Positions 1 to 9,842 of a stretch of DNA of 64,000 nucleotides are shown here, one piece after another. The position numbers and the translations under genes are program-made. Where the stretch lies: assembly GCF_024171895.1 (NCBI RefSeq), contig NZ_JAMTCQ010000008.1:248001-312000 (forward strand), in the 5' to 3' direction. Every line of letters begins with the position of its first letter. Positions within the stretch are counted from its first letter, which is position 1. A model generated the notes under the pieces. That model did not search any database, was not told where the DNA came from, and saw only the letters and a program-made list of their open reading frames with translations. Source of the DNA: Prauserella halophila. Lineage in GTDB: Bacteria > Actinomycetota > Actinomycetes > Mycobacteriales > Pseudonocardiaceae.

Positions 1-2713
1 TGCGGGCCGGGCTGGCCTGCTGGCCGTAGAGCAGGTTCGGCATCGGCGACTCGTGCGGTTCGTAGTGCGTCGGCAGCGGACCGTCGACGACACCGCTCGG
101 TGCGAACAACCACGCCTTGCCGTCGGCCTGCATGATGAACGGATCGTCACCGGCGAGTGCGCCGGGACCCGCCTCGCCGTACTCCGGTTCGAACCCGGGC
201 GGGGTCGTCGCCGGGAAGTCCGGCACGTCGTGGCCGGTCCACTCGCGGCGCTCGGCGTCCCACCAGACGAGCTTCTTGCGCTCGCTCCACGGCCTGCCCT
301 GTGGGTCGGCCGAGGCGCGGTTGTACAGCACCCGGCGGTTCGCGGGCCACGCCCAGCCCCATTCGAGCGCCGTCTCGTCCTGCTCGGTCCGCGCGGTGCG
401 GTTGCGGGCGCGGTTGACCCCGCCCGCGTAGACGCCGCTGTAGATCCAGCAGCCCGACGCCGTCGTGCCGTCGGAGCGCAGCTGCAGGTAGCTGTCGAGC
501 AGTTCGCCCGTGGTCAGGTCCACGCCGTTGATGCGGCGCAGCACGTCGTCGGCCGACGGTTCCGGGAACTCACCGTCGCCCTCGGTCCGGTAGTCCCACG
601 CCAGGTCCAACAGCGGCCGGTCACGGTCGTCGGCCGATCCGGCGAGCGTGCGCTGCAGCAGCCGGCCCAGGTGGTAGATGAACCACAGCTCCGAACGCTG
701 ATCCCCGCGCGGTGCGACGGCGCGGTCGCGCCACTGCAGCATCCGCTGGGTCTGGGTGAACGTGCCCTCCTTCTCCACGTGCGAGGCGGCGGGGAAGAAG
801 AACACCTCGGTGCGGCACTGTTCCGGAATGATCTCGCCGGTCTCGATCTCGGGCGCGTTGCGCCAGAACTCGGCGCTCTCGATCATCGTCAGGTCACGCA
901 CGACGAGCCAGTCGAGGTTGGCCATGCCGAGCCGCTGCAGCCGCCCGTGCGCCGAGCCGACCGCCGGGTTCTGCCCGAGCAGGAAGTAGCCGAACACCTT
1001 CCCGTCGATCATGTCCATCACGGTGCGGTAGGTGCCGTGATCACCGTCGATGCGCGGCAGGTGGTCGAAGGCGTAGTCGTTCTCCTCCGTGGCCGCCTCG
1101 CCCCAGTATTCCTTGAGCAGCGAGACGAGGTAGTCGTCGGCGTGGTGCCAGTACCCCTTCTGGTGGGTGCCGCGGATCGACTCGACGTAGTCGGCTTTGC
1201 CCGCGTGCCGGGCGTCCGGCATGGGCAGGTACCCGGGCAGCAGGTTGTACAGCGTGGGGATGTCGGTGGAGCCCTGGATGCTCGCGTGCCCGCGCAGCGC
1301 CAGCACTCCCCCGCCGGGCCTGCCGATGTTGCCGAGCAGCAGCTGGATGATCGCTCCCGCGCGGATGTACTGGGCACCCATCGAATGCTGGGTCCAGCCG
1401 ACGCTGTAGACCAGCGCCGCGGTGTGCTCCCGCCCGGAGGCACTCGTCCACGCCCGGCACACCTCGAGGAAGTCCTCGCGGGAGACGCCGCAGATCCGCT
1501 CCACCATCTCCGGCGTGTACCGCGAGAAGTGGCGCTTGAGGACCTGGAAGACGCAGCGCGGGTGCCGGAGTGTCTCGTCGGTCGCGATGCCCGTACCGCT
1601 TTCGAGCTTCGGCCCGCCCGAACCGTGCTGCTCGCCCGCGGACTGCTCCCGGTGCCGGTGACCCTCGACCGCGTTCGCCGGGAAGCCGTTCTCGTACTGC
1701 CACGTGGACGTGTCGTACGTGCCCGTCTCCGGGTCGTAGCCCGAGAACAGCCCGTCGAGGTCCTCCGTGTCGGCGAACTCCTCACTGACCAGGAACGACG
1801 CGTTCGTGTAGGCCTGTACGTACTCCCGGAAGTCCAAATCGTTCGACAGGATGTGGTTGATCACCCCGCCGAGCAGCGCGATGTCCGAGCCGGCCCGCAG
1901 CGGGACGTGCTTGTCCGCGAGCGCGCTGGTCCGCGTGAACCGCGGGTCGATGTGCAGCACCCTGGCCCCGCGCGCCTTGGCCTCCATGACCCACTGGAAA
2001 CCCACCGGATGGGCCTCGGCCATGTTCGAACCCATGATGACGACGCAGTCGGCATTGGCCAGGTCCTGCTGATAGTCCGTCGCGCCACCGCGACCGAAGG
2101 AGGCTCCCAGACCGGGAACCGTGGCGGAGTGTCAAATCCGCGCCTGGTTCTCGATCTGCACCGCGCCGAGGGCCGTGAAGAGCTTCTTGATCAGATAGTT
2201 CTCTTCGTTGTCGAGCGTCGCCCCGCCGAGGCTGGCGATGCCCTGCGTCCGCCGGAGCGGATTGCCGTCGGCGTCGGTCTCCTGCCAGCCCTTGCGGCGG
2301 GCGTCCAGCACGCGGTCGGTGAGCATGTCCATCGCCGTCGGCAGGTCCAGTTCCTGCCACTCGGTGCCGTACGCGGGCCGGTACAGCACCCGCTCCTCGC
2401 GGTGCTCACCGGTGACGAGCTGTTTACTGGCCGAACCCTTCGGACACAACCGCCCGCGCGAGACCGGACTGTCCGGGTTGCCTTCGATCTGCAGCACGTG
2501 CTCGCCCGTGTCGTCGCTGCCGACGTAGACGTGCTGGGCGCAGCCGACCGCGCAGTACGGGCAGACCGAGCCCGCCACCCGGTCGGCATCGGCGGTGCGG
2601 GGTTGCCGCTCGCGGGACTGCGCCGATGCGGCGGCGTCCCCTCTGCCGAGCCGGTCGGCGCCCGTGAGCTGGCGATACACCGGCCACGACCGGATCCACT
2701 CCCGCACACCCAT
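1..2713 (-). CDS. fdh: Formate dehydrogenase alpha subunit, selenocysteine-containing (partial)
   Basis: Large catalytic subunit of a molybdenum/tungsten bis-MGD formate dehydrogenase (FDH-N/FDH-O type) oxidising formate to CO2. The N-terminus has the [4Fe-4S] motif CPYCAVGC with the fourth Cys in RLCPKG. Reading is continuous to the left edge except for one TGA at 2132-2134 (residue 194), lying in NQARI-U-HSATV exactly where FDH-N carries selenocysteine; downstream EAHPVGFQWVMEAKARG and DPRFTRTSALADK match the family, and HYEPHESPMPN lies close to the window edge. Start ATG 2713 follows GGAGGAC. About 904 residues are inside the window; full family members are about 1000. No twin-arginine signal is visible, unlike E. 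coli FDH-N, so a cytoplasmic-side location is inferred. Gene callers that stop at TGA would break it in two. Confidence 0.93.
2102..2134 (-). promoter_or_regulatory. UGA selenocysteine codon and bacterial SECIS hairpin
   Basis: The UGA (2134-2132) is followed by 11 nt and then GGUUCCC-GGUCU-GGGAGCC (2120-2102), a 7-bp stem with a GGUCU apical loop. From memory of E. coli fdhF, spacing and loop sequence are the same, and that loop is the SelB-binding determinant. This supports readthrough as Sec rather than a nonsense mutation. Confidence 0.88.
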
Positions 2714-2786: not shown

Positions 2787-3677
2787 TCACGCCAGCCCGC
2801 GGATCACCCGGGCGGGCTGCTTGTCCCCGCGGATCGCCGACACCACGTCGAGCGCCTGGCACGTCTCGGCCACGTTGTGCGCGCGGAACACCGCTGCACC
2901 CTGCCAGGCGCACACGGCGGTCGCGGCCAGCGTGCCCGGCAGCCGCTCACCCACCGCGCGGTCGAGCGTCTCGCCGATGAAGTCCTTGTTGGACAGTGCC
3001 ACCAGCACCGGCCACCCGGTGTCGACCAGCCGCCCCAGCTCCCGGGTGAGCGCGAGCGAATGCCACGTGTTCTTGCCGAAGTCGTGCGTGGGGTCGACCA
3101 GCAGCCCCTCGGCAGGAACGCCGATGCGGACCAGGTCCTCGGCGCGGCGCGTCACCTCGGCGATCACGTCGGCCACGACGTCGGGATAGTGCACCCGATG
3201 CGGCCGGGTGCGCGGCACCGCGCCACCGGTGTGGGAACAGACGTAGCCGGCGCCGAACTCGGCGGCGACCTCCGACAGTCCCGGGTCGGCGCCGGCCCAG
3301 GTGTCGTTGAGCAGGTCCGCACCTTCCTCGCAGGCGAGCCTGCCGACCTCACGGCGCCAGGTGTCGACGCTGATCACCGCATGCGGGAACCGCTGCCGCA
3401 GCCGCGCCACGAACGGGACCACGCGCCGCCGTTCCTCGTCGACGTCGACGTCCGCACCGGGGCCCGCCTTCACCCCGCCCACGTCGATGATGTCCGCGCC
3501 GTCGTCGAGCGCCTGCTCGGCCGCGGCGAGGGCCTCGTCGGCGGCGTAGGTGGCGCCGCGGTCGTAGAACGAGTCGGGCGTGCGGTTCACGATGGCCATG
3601 ACCAATGGCCGGTCCCGACGCATCGCCCGGCCGCGGAAGCGGATCACGGATCCTGCGGAATTCTCACCGGTCTGCAC
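2787..3677 (-). CDS. folP2: Dihydropteroate synthase-like protein (FolP2 type)
   Basis: TIM-barrel pterin-binding protein of the dihydropteroate synthase family. MAIVNRTPDSFYDRG, DIIDVGGVKAGPG, SVDTWR, NDTW and DPTHDFGKNT are visible, and the C-terminus ends in RVIRGLA. The pattern VNRTPDSF with GGVKAGPG resembles mycobacterial FolP2, which is reported to lack normal DHPS activity, so folate synthesis should not be assumed. About 296 aa from GTG 3677; an internal ATG at 3623 is an alternative and neither has a strong Shine-Dalgarno, so the start is uncertain. It lies 73 bp upstream of the formate dehydrogenase on the same strand and may be co-transcribed with it. Confidence 0.85.
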   Translation of the reverse strand: MQTGENSAGSVIRFRGRAMRRDRPLVMAIVNRTPDSFYDRGATYAADEALAAAEQALDDGADIIDVGGVKAGPGADVDVDEERRRVVPFVARLRQRFPHAVISVDTWRREVGRLACEEGADLLNDTWAGADPGLSEVAAEFGAGYVCSHTGGAVPRTRPHRVHYPDVVADVIAEVTRRAEDLVRIGVPAEGLLVDPTHDFGKNTWHSLALTRELGRLVDTGWPVLVALSNKDFIGETLDRAVGERLPGTLAATAVCAWQGAAVFRAHNVAETCQALDVVSAIRGDKQPARVIRGLA

Positions 3678-3800
3678 ACCCCCAACGTATCGGTTCCCGC
3701 CGCCGGTCCCGGCCCGCGCGGGCGGGGCCGGGCCGTCGGACCTCACCGGCACCGGGCCGGACGGCCAGATCCCACCGGCACCCGGGGCCGGACGCACGCG

Positions 3801-3856: not shown

Positions 3857-4492
3857 TCAGGCGTGGTGCAACATGTGATACGCCTCGGCGGGAAACGCCG
3901 TCCCGGTGTCCCCGACAGCCAGGGCCCGGTAGGTCGCGATGGCGGCTTCCTCCAGGTTCATGGCGCGGCGGAACGCCATACCGACATCGGGCCCCACCGC
4001 CGAACACCCGTGGTGGCCCAGGATCACGCAGTCGTGGACCTTGGCCTCGGCCGCAGCCCGGTCGGCCAGTTCGTCGGACCCGTTGGGATAGTAGTCGGTG
4101 CGCCCGACCGACCTGACGTACACGGCGTGGTCCAATGTGAACAGCCGGACGGGGTGACCGAGGGCATCCACGAGTACGGCGTGCTGCGGATGGATGTGCA
4201 CCACCGCGTTCACGTCCTCCCGCACCCGGTAGGTGCGCTGGTGCAGCTTCCACTCGCTCGACGGCGACGGGTGCCCGCCGACGACCTCGCCGTCGAGGTC
4301 CATTCTGGTGAAATCGCCGGGTTCGAGCCGATCGAGCCAGGTTCCGGACGCGGTCATCACGAACTCGCCGGAGCCGGGAAGCCGGGCGGAGAGGTTGCCG
4401 CCGCTCGCGAGCACGAGCCCGCGTTCGACGGCCATCCGGCCGACGTCGATGAGTTGCTCGACCAGTTCGTCGACCGTTCTCGCCTGCTTCAT
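3857..4492 (-). CDS. Class II aldolase/adducin family protein
   Basis: Zinc-dependent sugar-phosphate aldolase or epimerase of the fuculose-1-phosphate aldolase/ribulose-5-phosphate 4-epimerase family, 211 aa, full length. SGGNLSARLPG (N-terminal substrate loop), HIHPQH and GHHGCSAVGPD supply the expected metal-binding histidines. Start ATG 4492 follows AAGGAG and overlaps the stop of the SorC regulator by 4 bp (ATGA), so it is translationally coupled to it. It probably performs the carbon-carbon cleavage step for the product of the divergent FGGY kinase and dehydrogenase; the actual sugar cannot be read from sequence. Confidence 0.88.
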   Translation of the reverse strand: MKQARTVDELVEQLIDVGRMAVERGLVLASGGNLSARLPGSGEFVMTASGTWLDRLEPGDFTRMDLDGEVVGGHPSPSSEWKLHQRTYRVREDVNAVVHIHPQHAVLVDALGHPVRLFTLDHAVYVRSVGRTDYYPNGSDELADRAAAEAKVHDCVILGHHGCSAVGPDVGMAFRRAMNLEEAAIATYRALAVGDTGTAFPAEAYHMLHHA

Positions 4493-5475
4493 GACCCACT
4501 CCTTCTGTTCCGGGGTTGCCTGTTCTCCGCCGGCCGGTTGCCTGCTGCCGGGTCCACGAGCTCGGCCGCAGTCTCGGCGTCGGTCACGACCATGTTCATC
4601 AGGCCGGCGCGCAACGCAGTTTCCAGTGCGCGCACCTTGTGCGGACCGAACGAGATCGCCACTCGGTGCGGAATCGCCGACAGCTGTTCGAGCGAGAGCC
4701 CGACCACCCGCTCGTCCACGTCGCCGGAGACGGCCCGTCCCGCGTCGTCGAAGAACCGGGCCGAGATGTCGCCGAGGGCGCCGGCGGCCGTCAGCTGGCG
4801 CTGTTCGGCCGGGGCGAGCTCGTCGATGAGGAGCCCCGCGCGCGGCTCCATGCCGCCGACGCCCGCAATCAGCAGGTCGGCGTCGGCGGCGCGGCGCATC
4901 GTCTCCTGCACGCCGGGATCGGAGCGGAACGCAGCGGCCGTCTCGGGCGACGAGGCCAGGATCGGCGCCGGCAGGTGGTAGGTCCGCGCACCGAAGGCCG
5001 AGCCGAGTCGCAGCGCCACCTCGTGCGGGTTCCTGCCGCGTGAGATGCCGCCCCAGCTGCCCGCCAGCGGGACGAATCCCAGTTCCGGTGCCGGGTCGGC
5101 GTGCACGTGCGCCGCGGTGGCCGCCACGCTGGACGACAGCCCCACCGCGACGGTTCCCGACGTCGGCACGAGCACGCGCAGGCATTCCGCCCCGGCCATG
5201 CCGACCGACTCGGTGGTGCGCCCCTCGTCGGCGAAGCTCGGGGCGATCCACACCTGTTGCAGCCCGAACCGGCCGACGAGCGCGGCCTCCAGGTCGCCGA
5301 ACGGGCTGGCCGAACTGTGGATCGTGATCTCGACGATCCCCGAGCGGCGCGCATCGGCGAGCAGCCGTGTCACCTTCACCCTGGACAGTCCGAGCAGGTC
5401 GCCGATCTCCTGGTGAGTCATGCCGTGCTGGTAGTGCAGGCGGGCGACGCGGCCCTGTAGTTCTCGCGACTCCAT
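4489..5475 (-). CDS. SorC/DeoR-type sugar-binding transcriptional regulator
   Basis: 328-aa regulator with an N-terminal helix-turn-helix (HQEIGDLLGLSRVKVTRLLADA, residues about 20-42) followed by the SorC sugar-phosphate-binding domain (VPLAGSWGG, ADLLIAGVGG, ISFGPHKVRALETALRAGLMNMVVTD). SorC proteins respond to phosphorylated sugars. ATG 5475 is chosen because the HTH starts shortly after it; upstream in-frame sequence is unconserved and contains the promoter-like inverted repeat. It lies 155 bp downstream of the MFS gene on the same strand and overlaps the aldolase start by 4 bp. It probably controls the whole 3.9-9.8 kb locus through the TGAAC palindromes described separately. Confidence 0.9.
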   Translation of the reverse strand: MESRELQGRVARLHYQHGMTHQEIGDLLGLSRVKVTRLLADARRSGIVEITIHSSASPFGDLEAALVGRFGLQQVWIAPSFADEGRTTESVGMAGAECLRVLVPTSGTVAVGLSSSVAATAAHVHADPAPELGFVPLAGSWGGISRGRNPHEVALRLGSAFGARTYHLPAPILASSPETAAAFRSDPGVQETMRRAADADLLIAGVGGMEPRAGLLIDELAPAEQRQLTAAGALGDISARFFDDAGRAVSGDVDERVVGLSLEQLSAIPHRVAISFGPHKVRALETALRAGLMNMVVTDAETAAELVDPAAGNRPAENRQPRNRRSGS

Positions 5476-5477
5476 GC

Positions 5478-5515
5478 CGTGAACATCCGTTCTTATGTAT
5501 GACCCTACGTTCACG
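5478..5515 (-). promoter_or_regulatory. Putative SorC autoregulatory operator/promoter
   Basis: Arms CGTGAAC (5478-5484) and GTTCACG (5509-5515) form an inverted repeat just 5' of the regulator. Inside it, TGAACATCCGTTCT (5480-5493) resembles the two palindromes in the MFS/kinase promoter region. AT-rich bases in the middle (CATACATAAG on the minus strand) could be a -10 box. Confidence 0.5.
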
Positions 5516-5630
5516 CCATCCTGCCGTGCCGGCCCGAGCGCCGTCGACCGCCACCCCCGCGTGTCGCACGCACCGGCACCCGGCTCCCGCTTCGGCGACA
5601 CGCCGGTCACCGCGGTCGCACCGGCGGCGC

Positions 5631-6950
5631 TCACGACGTCGCCACCTCGTCGCGACCGGACGACCCCTCCGCATCAGCCGGCTCCTCCGCACCGGACGAC
5701 ACGGCCTCCGGTGCGCGCAGGCCGAAGGTGAGCGCGATCCCGACCGCGTAGAGCCCGGCGAGCAGCCACATCATGCCGCCGACGCCGAACGGCCCGAGGA
5801 ACGCACGGGCCAGCAGCGGACCGGTCGCGTTGCTCAGCCCGGCACCGAGGTTCAGGATCGCGACCGCCGCGGCCTTCTGCGTCGGAGCCAGCAGCGGAAC
5901 GATCGCACTGAGCGGCACGTAGGCAGCCATCGCGAGCCCGAGCAGGATCGCCGCGATCATGGCCACGGGGAAGTTGGGCCCGAGCCACTCGGGCAGGTAG
6001 TACATGGCGAGCACGGTGATCACGCAGCCCAGTCCGCCGAACCACGCCACGACGTTCACCGGGCCGATCCGGTCACCGAGGTATCCGGCCAGCACGTTGC
6101 CGATGATGTTGGCGAAGAGCATCGTGCCCCAGATCGTCTGCCACTGCGGCAGCGAGAACCCCACCTCGTTGACCATGTGCGAGGCGAGGAACACGGGGAA
6201 CGCGTAGAAGCACAGCGTGTTGATGATCCGCACGGCACCGCCGATGCCGACCTTCGGATGCGTGCGCACGACCGTGAGCCCCCGGGTCACCTGCCGCAGA
6301 TTCGCCCACGCGCCGGCCTGTGCCTCGTGCCGCCGGGTGCGCACGAGGAAGAGCACGATCACGCCGCCCGCCGCGACGAACGCCAGCGACAGCCACATGG
6401 TCGCCAGCTCCCCGACAAGCGGAATGACCGCACCGGCGAAGTAGGAGCTGAGCACGCCGAGCCCGGCGGTGGAGGCGAACCAGTACCACCCGACGGCCCT
6501 GCCGATCACGGCCTTGGGCGTGTCCATGGTGACCCAGACCAGAAACCCGTACGCGAAGAACGGATACCCGAACCCGCGAACGCCGTAGGAGAGCAGCATG
6601 ACCTCGTAGTTGCCCGCGACGACGCCGAACCCGAGGAAGACGACCTCGAACACGACCCACACGGTGAAGCCGATGAGCATCACGCGCCGCGGGCCCCACG
6701 CTTCGGCGAGCGCTCCGGCGAGCCATGCGGCGACCGCGACGACGACACCGTAGACGCTGATCAGCGTCGCCACTCCGGCGGCGCCGAATCCCCGGGACTC
6801 CAGATACGGCCCCAGGAAGCCGAGTTCGATCCCGTCACCGACCATGAACAGCAGAAGCGCGAGGTATCCCCAGGCCAGCGACCGGACGATGCCCTGCCGT
6901 TCCAGCCAGCCTGCGAAGCCCGTGCGTGGTTCCCCGGTCACCTCTGCCAT
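5631..6950 (-). CDS. MFS transporter, polyol/sugar permease-like
   Basis: 439-aa major facilitator with about 12 hydrophobic segments and the GDGIELGFLGPYLESRG first helix seen in RbtT/DalT/CsbX-type polyol permeases (family assignment from memory). The end of TM2 and following loop contain LAEAWGPRRV, a variant of the MFS loop motif. The C-terminal tail is acidic. ATG 6950 sits 8 nt after AAAGGAG; an adjacent GTG at 6953 is equally possible. It is divergent from the FGGY kinase and upstream of the SorC regulator, so it is the likely importer of the locus substrate. Confidence 0.85.
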   Translation of the reverse strand: MAEVTGEPRTGFAGWLERQGIVRSLAWGYLALLLFMVGDGIELGFLGPYLESRGFGAAGVATLISVYGVVVAVAAWLAGALAEAWGPRRVMLIGFTVWVVFEVVFLGFGVVAGNYEVMLLSYGVRGFGYPFFAYGFLVWVTMDTPKAVIGRAVGWYWFASTAGLGVLSSYFAGAVIPLVGELATMWLSLAFVAAGGVIVLFLVRTRRHEAQAGAWANLRQVTRGLTVVRTHPKVGIGGAVRIINTLCFYAFPVFLASHMVNEVGFSLPQWQTIWGTMLFANIIGNVLAGYLGDRIGPVNVVAWFGGLGCVITVLAMYYLPEWLGPNFPVAMIAAILLGLAMAAYVPLSAIVPLLAPTQKAAAVAILNLGAGLSNATGPLLARAFLGPFGVGGMMWLLAGLYAVGIALTFGLRAPEAVSSGAEEPADAEGSSGRDEVATS

Positions 6951-6974
6951 CACGAACTCTCCTTTGAGCTCCGG

Positions 6975-6990
6975 ATGAACATTTGTTCAT
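6975..6990. promoter_or_regulatory. 16-bp perfect operator palindrome
   Basis: ATGAACA-TT-TGTTCAT is a dyad with 7-bp arms, 25 bp upstream of the MFS start in the 304-bp divergent MFS/kinase promoter region. AT-rich against a very GC-rich background. Proposed SorC operator. Confidence 0.6.
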
Positions 6991-7108
6991 TCCCGTGCAC
7001 TTGCGATCGGCAGCGTGACCCGAGCGCGGACCGCTGTCAAGTGACCCCGAACGAGTTGACCTCCGGAGGCCTCACGTCGTAGCGTGACTGAACTACGGAC
7101 CAGGTACG

Positions 7109-7122
7109 TGAACCAATGTTCA
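7109..7122. promoter_or_regulatory. Second TGAAC-type operator
   Basis: TGAACCAATGTTCA matches the palindrome at 6975-6990 in both outer arms and the same 14-bp frame. It lies on the kinase side of the divergent region, so one site may serve each promoter. Confidence 0.5.
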
Positions 7123-7254
7123 ACACCAGTTCGCGGAGACCACCGGTTCGCGGAGTGGGTTCACCGGGTGGGATGTACCGGTGGGAAACGACCTGGTTCG
7201 ACCGGAGCACGTTCGACCGGACGTGCTCCACCGAGTGCGTTCACTGGAGAGCGG

Positions 7255-8832
7255 ATGAGTCAACCCCCGGTCGCCGTGGTCGGCATCGACGCGGGAACCA
7301 CGGCCGTCAAGGCCACCGTGCTCACCACCGACGGCGCGGAACTCGCCACAGCCCGGACCCCGGTGCACGTCGCCCGGCCCGGTCCGGCCCAGGCGGAGCA
7401 ATCGATGAACGAGTTGTGGCACGCCGTGGTCCGCACCGTGCGGGAGGCCCTGGATGCGGCCGGCGACGTCGATGTCGCCGCCGCAGGCGTCACCGGGCAG
7501 GGCGACGGGGTGTGGCTGCTCGACGAGCGCTACGAGCCGGTGGGACCCGCGATCCTCTGGCTCGACGGCCGAGCCGCCGACCGGGTGCGCGCCTGGGAAC
7601 ACGACGGACGAGCGGCGGCGATCCGCCGAGCCACCGGCTCCACCCTCTTCCCCGGCGCGCTGCCGGTGTTGCTGGAGGAACTCGAGGCGACCCGGCCGGA
7701 ACTGCTCCGCCGGGCACGCCACCACGCGAACTGCAAGGACTGGATCCGGCTGCAGCTGACCGGCGTACTGACGACCGACGCCTCCGAGGCCTCGCGCACC
7801 TATGTCGACCCGGCCACCGGCACCTACTCCGACGAACTCATCGACGCGCTGGGGCACCGCAGGTTCGCCGAGCTGCTGCCACCCGTCGAGGCGGCCGGCT
7901 CGCACCGGCCGCTCACCGCGGCCGCCGCCGGCACATTGGGCCTGCCGGCGGGCATCCCCGTCGTGACGGGCCTGGTCGACACCGCCGCCGGCGGCGCGGG
8001 GCTCGGCGTGAGCACCCCGGGCCAGTCCTACGCCATCATCGGCACGACCGCCTTCCTCGGCACCGTGCACGCGACGCGAGCGGACGTCGGCACCGACGTC
8101 GGGATCACACTGGCCACCGGACCCGACGGTGCGGTGCTCGAATGCCTCTGCCCGATGTCGGGCACCCCGAACCTCGACTGGGTGCGCGACCTGCTCGGCC
8201 GAGGCGGGCAGAGCTGGGAATCGGTCGAGGCCGAGGCGCGTGCGGTCCCCGCGGGCGCAGGCGGCGTGCTGTACCTGCCCTACGGAGCCGAGGCCGGTGA
8301 GCGCGCCCCCTTCGCCGATCCGCACGCCTCGGCGAGCTGGCTGGGACTGTCCACCGAGACGACACCCGGTCAGCTGCTGCGGGCCGTGTACGAGGGAATC
8401 GCCTTCAGTCTGCGGGAGTGCCGGGAAGCGCTCGGTGTCGGCGGAACACTGCGCCTCTGCGGCGGAGCAGCCACCAGCGGACTGCTGTGCCAGATCCTCG
8501 CCGACATCACCGGATGCACGATCGAACGCGCCTCCGCCGCCGAACTCGGCGCGCGCGGGGTCGCCGCCCACGCACTCGCCGCGATCACCGGAACCGATGT
8601 CCCGGCGGCCGCCGCGCGGCTGCTCGGCGAACTCGACGTCTTCCGGCCCGACCCCGGCCTGCGCACCGCCTACGAGACCCGGTTCGCCGCGTTCGTCGCC
8701 GTCCGCGACGCGCTCCGTCCACATTGGCCCGACCTGCGCGGCCTGCGCGCCCTCGGCGACGAGCCGTCCTCCCCCGAGCGCACGTCCGCCGGGGACGAAC
8801 ACCCGCCGCCCACGCACAAGGAGCTTGCCTGA
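7255..8832 (+). CDS. FGGY-family carbohydrate kinase
   Basis: 525-aa sugar kinase with the ASKHA fold. GIDAGTTAVKAT is the phosphate-1 loop near the N-terminus, VTGQGDGVWLLD and CKDWIRLQLTG resemble erythritol kinase (EryA) and L-xylulokinase (LyxK), TGLVDTAAGG holds the likely catalytic Asp, and LRLCGGAATSGLLCQILADI is the adenosine motif. This suggests phosphorylation of a ketopentose or four- to five-carbon polyol/ketose; the exact substrate is unknown. ATG 7255 follows GGAGAG. It overlaps the next gene by TGATG, so the two are co-translated. Confidence 0.9.
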   Translation: MSQPPVAVVGIDAGTTAVKATVLTTDGAELATARTPVHVARPGPAQAEQSMNELWHAVVRTVREALDAAGDVDVAAAGVTGQGDGVWLLDERYEPVGPAILWLDGRAADRVRAWEHDGRAAAIRRATGSTLFPGALPVLLEELEATRPELLRRARHHANCKDWIRLQLTGVLTTDASEASRTYVDPATGTYSDELIDALGHRRFAELLPPVEAAGSHRPLTAAAAGTLGLPAGIPVVTGLVDTAAGGAGLGVSTPGQSYAIIGTTAFLGTVHATRADVGTDVGITLATGPDGAVLECLCPMSGTPNLDWVRDLLGRGGQSWESVEAEARAVPAGAGGVLYLPYGAEAGERAPFADPHASASWLGLSTETTPGQLLRAVYEGIAFSLRECREALGVGGTLRLCGGAATSGLLCQILADITGCTIERASAAELGARGVAAHALAAITGTDVPAAAARLLGELDVFRPDPGLRTAYETRFAAFVAVRDALRPHWPDLRGLRALGDEPSSPERTSAGDEHPPPTHKELA

Positions 8833-9842
8833 TGCCCTCTTCGCCCACCCCGCGCGTCCTCGTCACCGCGGCGTTCGACCAGCGCGTCGCCGACGAACTG
8901 GCGGCCGATTTCGACCTCACCGTGGTCCCGCCGTCCGGCACGGGACGTTCGCTGGCCGACGCCGGGCTCGACGACGAGCTCGCCGCGGCCGACGCGGTCG
9001 TGTGCGAACTCGACGTGCTCGACGGGCCGTCGCTGGCGCTCGCCGGGAAGCTCGGCCTCGCCGTGTCGTGCCGGGCGGCGCCGGTCAACGTCGACCTCGA
9101 GGCGTGCAGCAGACGGGGCATCCCGGTGGCCACCACGCCCGGCCGCAACGCCGACGTCACCGCGGATCTCACGTTCTCGCTCCTGCTGTCGGCACTGCGC
9201 AACACCGCCCGCGCGGAGGCGTGGCTGCGCACCGGGGCGTGGACGAGCGACGACGTGTTCGAGCCCTACCGCGCCTTCCGCGGCCTGAGTCTCCGCGGGC
9301 GCACCCTCGGCATCCTCGGCGGCGGCGCCGTGGGACGCCGGGTCCTGGCCAGGGCACGGGCGTTCGGCATGCGTGTGCTCGTCTACGACCCCCATCTCCC
9401 TGCCGACACGTTCGGCGACGACGCCGCGATCGTGCCGCTCGACGAGCTACTCGCCGGTTCCGACGTCGTCACGGTGCACGTCCCGCTGACGGAGTCGACG
9501 ATCGGCCTGCTCGGAACCGAGCAGCTCGCCACCATGCGCCGTGGCGCCTACCTCATCAATGCGGGCAGGGCCGCCATCGTGGAGGAACAGCCGCTGATCG
9601 ACGCGTTGCGCAGCGGGCACCTCGCCGGCGCGGGCCTCGACGTGTACTGGACCGAGCCGCTCCCGGCCGATCACCCGCTCCGGTCACTGCCGAACGTCAC
9701 CCTCACCCCGCACATCGGCGGTGCTTCCGACGACGTGATCGTCGAACACTCGCGGCTCGCGGCGGACGCACTGCGTGCCTGGCGGGACGGTGCTCCGATC
9801 CCGTCGGTCGCCAACGCGCGGTCCCTGCCTGCGCAGGGCTGA
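8832..9842 (+). CDS. D-2-hydroxyacid dehydrogenase family protein
   Basis: 336-aa NAD(P)-dependent oxidoreductase of the phosphoglycerate dehydrogenase/CtBP superfamily. The Rossmann motif is GILGGGAVGRRVLARARAFG, followed by VYDPHLP; INAGRAAIV carries the catalytic Arg, DVYWTEPLP the acidic partner and LTPHIGGAS the catalytic His. It starts inside the kinase stop codon (TGATG), hence one operon. Together with the aldolase and kinase it implies a pathway passing through a hydroxyacid or ketose intermediate; assignment as serine-pathway SerA is unlikely given the context and lack of an ACT domain. Confidence 0.88.
   Translation: MPSSPTPRVLVTAAFDQRVADELAADFDLTVVPPSGTGRSLADAGLDDELAAADAVVCELDVLDGPSLALAGKLGLAVSCRAAPVNVDLEACSRRGIPVATTPGRNADVTADLTFSLLLSALRNTARAEAWLRTGAWTSDDVFEPYRAFRGLSLRGRTLGILGGGAVGRRVLARARAFGMRVLVYDPHLPADTFGDDAAIVPLDELLAGSDVVTVHVPLTESTIGLLGTEQLATMRRGAYLINAGRAAIVEEQPLIDALRSGHLAGAGLDVYWTEPLPADHPLRSLPNVTLTPHIGGASDDVIVEHSRLAADALRAWRDGAPIPSVANARSLPAQG

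Follow-up and report, generated by a model that had tools for sequence, protein, structure and literature searches.

Described selenocysteine-containing formate dehydrogenases

Formate dehydrogenase (FDH) alpha subunits (FdhA) and SelD are named as the most widespread bacterial selenoproteins in the portions of two papers at hand (PMC1794560, PMC5029168). According to the same portion of the former, it is chiefly FdhA and SelD that have changed from selenocysteine (Sec) to cysteine, and remnant SECIS-like structures persist in part of the Cys forms (PMC1794560). Actinomycetospora chiangmaiensis, a member of the Pseudonocardiaceae as is Prauserella, is described in the available sections of a 2020 paper as having three FDH systems with Sec, among them a membrane-bound enzyme with an FdhA1 of 1078 aa, FdhB and FdhC (PMC7176365). 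These sections report that its removal of formic acid is selenium-dependent, that no other formate oxidation is encoded, and that SelA, SelB and SelD were detected at low abundance; 'n.a.' replaces the accession for two of the Sec-containing FdhA proteins (PMC7176365). From excerpts of three further papers, Amycolatopsis mediterranei possesses a tRNA-Sec and a UGA-containing FDH, both missing in A. orientalis, with selABD implied (PMC4048454); Corynebacterium aurimucosum carries selABD, selC and an fdnG with an internal UGA (PMC2830990); and members of the Geodermatophilaceae have FDHs together with a tRNA-Sec whose anticodon is CUA (PMC5330540).

Here we analysed a stretch of 64,000 nucleotides from Prauserella halophila (the window), at the start of which the first-pass annotation had placed a Sec-containing FDH gene. 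In our reading, to which we assign a probability of roughly 0.97, the locus is a three-gene FDH operon composed of fdhA and the genes for a 4Fe-4S subunit and an NrfD-type membrane subunit, in which the UGA is read as Sec through SelB and a hairpin and the product is a formate-oxidising enzyme. The arrangement is real but ordinary, being known and common in related bacteria. It is unsurprising because actinobacterial FDH already has its own NCBIfam model and Sec-containing FDHs have been published for other actinomycetes, and we call it ordinary because the enzyme, the recoding signal and the machinery are all of a known kind in the same bacterial family. A literature search for Prauserella together with selenocysteine found no paper. 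The locus adds one genus to the known distribution of these enzymes, with the recoding event correctly read.

With the systems of A. mediterranei and C. aurimucosum, as far as the excerpts describe them, the locus shares an actinomycete FDH with a UGA and a tRNA-Sec, although these belong to other genera. It differs from A. chiangmaiensis, as presented in the available sections, in that the genome of the window holds one match at E ≤1e-100 rather than three FDH systems. The placement of the sel genes is also different: selA and selB of A. chiangmaiensis are listed there under the FDH1 cluster (PMC7176365) and the excerpt for C. aurimucosum has the sel genes clustered with fdnG (PMC2830990), whereas those of Prauserella lie on another contig than fdhA.

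The fdhA gene and its neighbours

The features of the locus inside the window are collected in Table 1. The most likely start of fdhA is the ATG at 2713-2711 on the minus strand, which is favoured because an in-frame TGA stands just upstream of the matching Met in six relatives (L030-L032, L035, L036 and L043), and the frame continues beyond the start of the window. The whole gene, taken from the genome (locus L022), has 1146 codons from an upstream GTG or about 1134 from the likely ATG, and it terminates in a second TGA. With the TGA at 2134-2132 translated as Sec, the 916 codons that the window covers contain no other stop. Under the standard code a plain translation breaks the gene in two. 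The statement of the first-pass annotation that standard annotation would split the gene needs toning down, as NCBI has a family model into which the protein fits, while the 2020 paper on A. chiangmaiensis prints 'n.a.' for two such FdhA accessions (PMC7176365).

Table 1. Features of the fdhA locus in the 64,000-nucleotide window
Feature	Position	Strand	Basis
fdhA, predicted Sec-containing formate dehydrogenase alpha subunit, 5′ part	1..2713	minus	translation with TGA=U; profile scores
TGA predicted to be read as selenocysteine	2132..2134	minus	alignment with known Sec residues; orthologue codons
SECIS 5′ arm GGUUCCC	2114..2120	minus	sequence, fold, pairing counts
SECIS apical loop GGUCU	2109..2113	minus	loop kept in TGA orthologues
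SECIS 3′ arm GGGAGCC	2102..2108	minus	sequence, fold, pairing counts

FdhA, with Sec entered as Cys, passes the curated cut-offs of NCBIfam NF041513 for actinobacterial FDH (formate_DH_Act; 1877 bits, cut-off 1400) and of TIGR01553 for the FDH-N alpha subunit (951 bits, cut-off 814), and is on these scores a member of the family of Sec-FDH alpha subunits; its score for TIGR01591 (317 bits) is under the cut-off of 666. Model positions 2-1067 of the 1067 of NF041513 are matched. No difference was seen in the matched part, but a C-terminal tail of FdhA lies outside the match. This tail carries TAPD-like repeats (L022 4312-4500) and lies beyond the start of the window.

The peptide around the TGA reads VQIENQARI-U-HSATVPGLGASFGRGG, with the Sec at residue 206 of the translated frame or at residue 194 counted from the ATG at 2713. 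In alignment, the residue at the TGA falls on the X printed for both E. coli FDH-N (1kqf_A) and 1h0h_A, and a comparison with E. coli FdnG and FdhF likewise puts TGA/Sec at the aligned residue, which in fdnG is codon 196. The placing of an in-frame TGA at the FDH Sec position was exact to the base.

The gene for the 4Fe-4S protein (L022 3368-4315) comes after fdhA, its start overlapping the fdhA stop, and is followed by that for the NrfD-type membrane protein (L022 2397-3446). The best model for the former was that of the FDH beta subunit (TIGR01582), at 192 bits under a cut-off of 335; no NCBIfam model matched the latter. By analogy with known families, Sec would be a ligand of a Mo/W-bis-pterin site at which formate is oxidised, and the electrons would reach the quinone pool by way of first the 4Fe-4S and then the membrane subunit. 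Compared with FdnG, to which FdhA is 38% identical, two differences were noted. FdnG is exported by the Tat system, but no twin-arginine motif was seen by eye at the FdhA N-terminus; and FdnI, the E. coli membrane subunit, is of the cytochrome-b type rather than the NrfD type.

It could be asked whether the Sec protein is made but mainly works in the other direction or on another substrate, for instance by reducing CO2 or by catalysing a related reaction of molybdopterin enzymes. Some room for such an enzyme is left by the breadth of the molybdopterin superfamily, by an assignment of activity from sequence and by a membrane subunit that differs in type from FdnI. However, two models for formate dehydrogenases score FdhA above their cut-offs, it shows the identity to FdnG given above, and Actinomycetospora, which has Sec-FDHs and, in the available sections of the paper, no other encoded formate oxidation, removes formic acid in a selenium-dependent manner (PMC7176365). 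We regard a different main reaction as very unlikely and retain formate oxidation as the probable function.

The gene just upstream of fdhA occupies window 2787-3700 on the minus strand and may, judged by a sequence motif, encode a dihydropteroate synthase. Further on, the frames at window 3857-9842 resemble, judged by eye from the ORF translations, a sugar/polyol utilisation cluster with an aldolase, a SorC-type regulator, an MFS transporter, an FGGY-type kinase and a D-hydroxyacid dehydrogenase.

Selenocysteine machinery of the genome

The bacterial Sec decoding trait, namely tRNA-Sec, SelA, SelB and SelD, is complete in the genome. Only matches above the cut-off were counted, since weak ones to the same models also occur in control genomes. 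Of nine tRNA-Sec matches one exceeds the Rfam cut-off (71 vs 47 bits), and its anticodon is TCA according to ARAGORN. Each of the three proteins is represented by a single match above the curated cut-off: SelA with 426 bits (cut-off 268), SelD with 382 bits (cut-off 125) and SelB with 248 bits (247.9), barely above its cut-off of 242.25, with model positions 2-373 of 581 matched in the genome search. The domains of SelB comprise the GTPase, the SelB beta-barrel and SelB-wing_3, the last identified with Pfam at residues 544-587 (E 3.2e-14). The genes form a cluster at C4:376291-379857, in which selC is flanked by selA and selD. The genes that the first-pass annotation had expected have thus all been found, SelB and tRNA-Sec, whose absence was to count against it, included. 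In addition, fdhD is present above its cut-off, and the UGSC family has no match in the genome, a negative that carries no weight since the controls gave none either.

By analogy with known families, the ribosome at the UGA would meet SelB carrying Sec-tRNA-Sec and bound to the downstream hairpin by its C-terminal winged helix, and the selenocysteine so delivered would go in before a release factor acts.

The hairpin downstream of the TGA codon

A 7-bp stem with a GGUCU loop (2120-2102) begins 11 nt after the TGA, exactly as had been claimed. The fold proposed as a check gave a mixed answer: the hairpin is indeed predicted, at -12.6 kcal/mol, but it is no more stable than those of shuffled sequences, which folded as well in 43/200 cases for 40 nt (z -0.80), 27/200 for 35 nt (z -1.04) and 97/200 for 56 nt (z +0.10). 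Because shuffles fold as well, the folding energy by itself is no evidence for the hairpin.

What raises the hairpin above chance is the rarity of its pattern, the loop that is kept in TGA and lost in TGC orthologues, and one covarying pair. A scan of both strands of the window for a TGA followed at the same fixed spacing by one of four allowed loop forms and by six or more of the seven pairs gave a single occurrence, the fdhA site, against a mean of 0.05 per sequence in 40 simulated 64-kb sequences (first-order Markov, from the window). When the genome was searched with model R1, which includes the fdhA site itself, that site had an E-value of 2.3e-14 and the next of the 12 matches 0.16. No further credible SECIS site was found in this search, R1 being built from FDH sites only, and other selenoproteins are possible. 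Rfam at gathering thresholds found one tRNA elsewhere in the 64-kb window and nothing at the TGA and hairpin of fdhA.

Codon, loop and pairing in orthologues

The codon at the Sec site was read in 130 loci, 50 from a sample of the window's family and the best 80 of 593 from a further search, a selection that favours close relatives; the two sets share some species. The 50 sample loci consist of the 30 best matches and 20 fetched further, the latter being nine full-length matches that lack a stop, one partial second copy (G035), six with two TGAs and four with a TGA and a TAG. The codon is TGA in 121 loci (41 of the family sample and all of the best 80 of 593) and TGC in nine. At the same distance, the 121 TGA loci have the loop GGTCT (115), AGTCT (3) or AGTTT (3), and none of these forms occurs in the nine TGC loci. 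The locus therefore shows what is expected of a bacterial SECIS, that is, a hairpin right after the UGA whose conserved loop contains G and which accompanies Sec but not Cys, and the two types of locus offer a natural comparison of SECIS presence within one bacterial family.

The TGA loci reduce to 62 distinct 45-nt stretches, in which seven stem pairs are formed in 34 and six in 28; the TGC loci form 3 to 6, and one of them still forms 6/7. The named pairing holds in 93.5% of cells (shuffled mean 88.8) and 30 cells are changed on both sides (shuffled mean 4.3), neither value being reached in 500 shuffles, and the nine further pair types were reached by 3/500. When the partner column is shifted by one to three positions, at most 65.7% of cells pair, and RNAalifold, unaided, predicts the inner six pairs. 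The covariation is narrow: 28 of the 30 doubly changed cells lie in one pair, alignment pair 18-30, which is changed on both sides in 28/62 and paired in 62/62 distinct sequences. The number of pairs with a double change, two, is ordinary (201/500 shuffles), three of the seven pairs are invariant, and the outermost is open in 27/62.

These data bear on whether a near-cognate tRNA could read the TGA with no need of selenium, the hairpin being just a side effect of constraints on the protein and its codons. The stretch does code a conserved peptide, and protein constraint explains part of the nucleotide conservation. Nevertheless, in all 121 TGA loci the Pro, Gly/Ser and Leu codons, which span the last part of the 5′ arm together with the loop, have C, T and G as their respective third bases, and pair 18-30 covaries. 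The TGC orthologues code a similar peptide, of their own type (RVCHS, with V/A/I for the loop-region Pro), and yet lack the loop, the T of the middle third base (Gly/Ser codon) being found in 0/9. As the tRNA-Sec also accompanies the TGA type (see below), selenium-free readthrough is rejected as highly improbable. Because they share this peptide type, the nine TGC proteins may stand for few events of loss. We likewise reject, as scarcely credible, that the gene is decaying and that its TGA is a nonsense mutation or a sequencing error, which would fit a frame that stops after 205 aa under the standard code. The same TGA is present in all six genus-sample genomes with a match over the site (L024-L029) and in 121 of the 130 loci, the 1146-codon frame is free of stops elsewhere, and the sel gene set is present. 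Reading of the TGA as Sec is thus the interpretation that we carry forward.

Comparison with the E. coli SECIS elements

The hairpin had been called E. coli-like, and this holds for the loop sequence and spacing but not for the bulge. By sequence position, E. coli fdhF has GGTCT equally far from its TGA; the corresponding letters of fdnG are AGTCT, a form shared by 3/121 actinomycete TGA loci. The loops that RNAfold predicts for E. coli are smaller, 4 bases in fdhF and 3 in fdnG, and it leaves one base of each E. coli 5′ arm unpaired, corresponding to alignment column 18 in fdhF and 17 in fdnG. In contrast, the actinomycete stem is without this one-base bulge: column 17 is paired in 61/62 distinct sequences and column 18 in 62/62 (U-A, C-G, U-G, G-U and G-C), and the inner six pairs are unbroken in 61/62, with no bulge of the E. 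coli type.

Bacterial SelB contacts bulged-out bases, according to the part of a paper at hand (PMC11881835). We see an even chance that the actinomycete fdhA SECIS forms a bulge-free class, in which the loop and spacing of fdhF are kept and the bulged base is replaced by a covarying pair, so that SelB would read loop and stem with no bulge contact. How bulge-free SECIS hairpins are read is the one new question that the locus raises.

Sec and Cys types across the family

Among 200 genomes sampled from the window's family, 126 had an fdhA match at E ≤1e-100. Two of these, both with tRNA-Sec, were set aside, G149 as its match misses the site and G028 as its match is distant (42% identity). The other 124 were classed by stop counts, the codon itself being read only in fetched loci, into 115 of the TGA type and nine of the Cys type. 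A tRNA-Sec was found in 114/115 TGA-type vs 2/9 Cys-type genomes, a contrast among related species for which a Fisher p overstates independence. The single TGA-type genome with no tRNA-Sec match, G138, is in 370 contigs and 87% complete. With tRNA-Sec above the cut-off in 138/200 sampled genomes, the remark of the first-pass annotation that selenoproteins are patchy in actinomycetes needs trimming for this family.

In G031 and G115, tRNA-Sec is present though the fdhA found is of the Cys type, and it is also present in 20 of the 74 genomes that have no fdhA match at E ≤1e-100. This pair and these 20 genomes may have kept Sec for other proteins.

Additional stop codons in orthologues

A second in-frame TGA occurs in 18 matches, which brought up the possibility of a double-Sec gene. 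This was rejected: in 11 of the 12 that were read, it stands just upstream of the probable start (L030-L032, L035, L036, L043, L064-L067 and L069). The twelfth, L068 from the 450-contig assembly G121, has it 691 codons past the Sec, where the protein of the window has Trp. In-frame TAG or TAA codons lie upstream of the probable start in L047, L051 and L070-L072, and L073 has a TAG 472 codons past the Sec, at the end of its match. In L111 (Micromonospora andamanensis) an in-frame TAG stands one codon before IENQARI-Sec, where the relatives have Gln; it is a mutation or a sequence error in the record.
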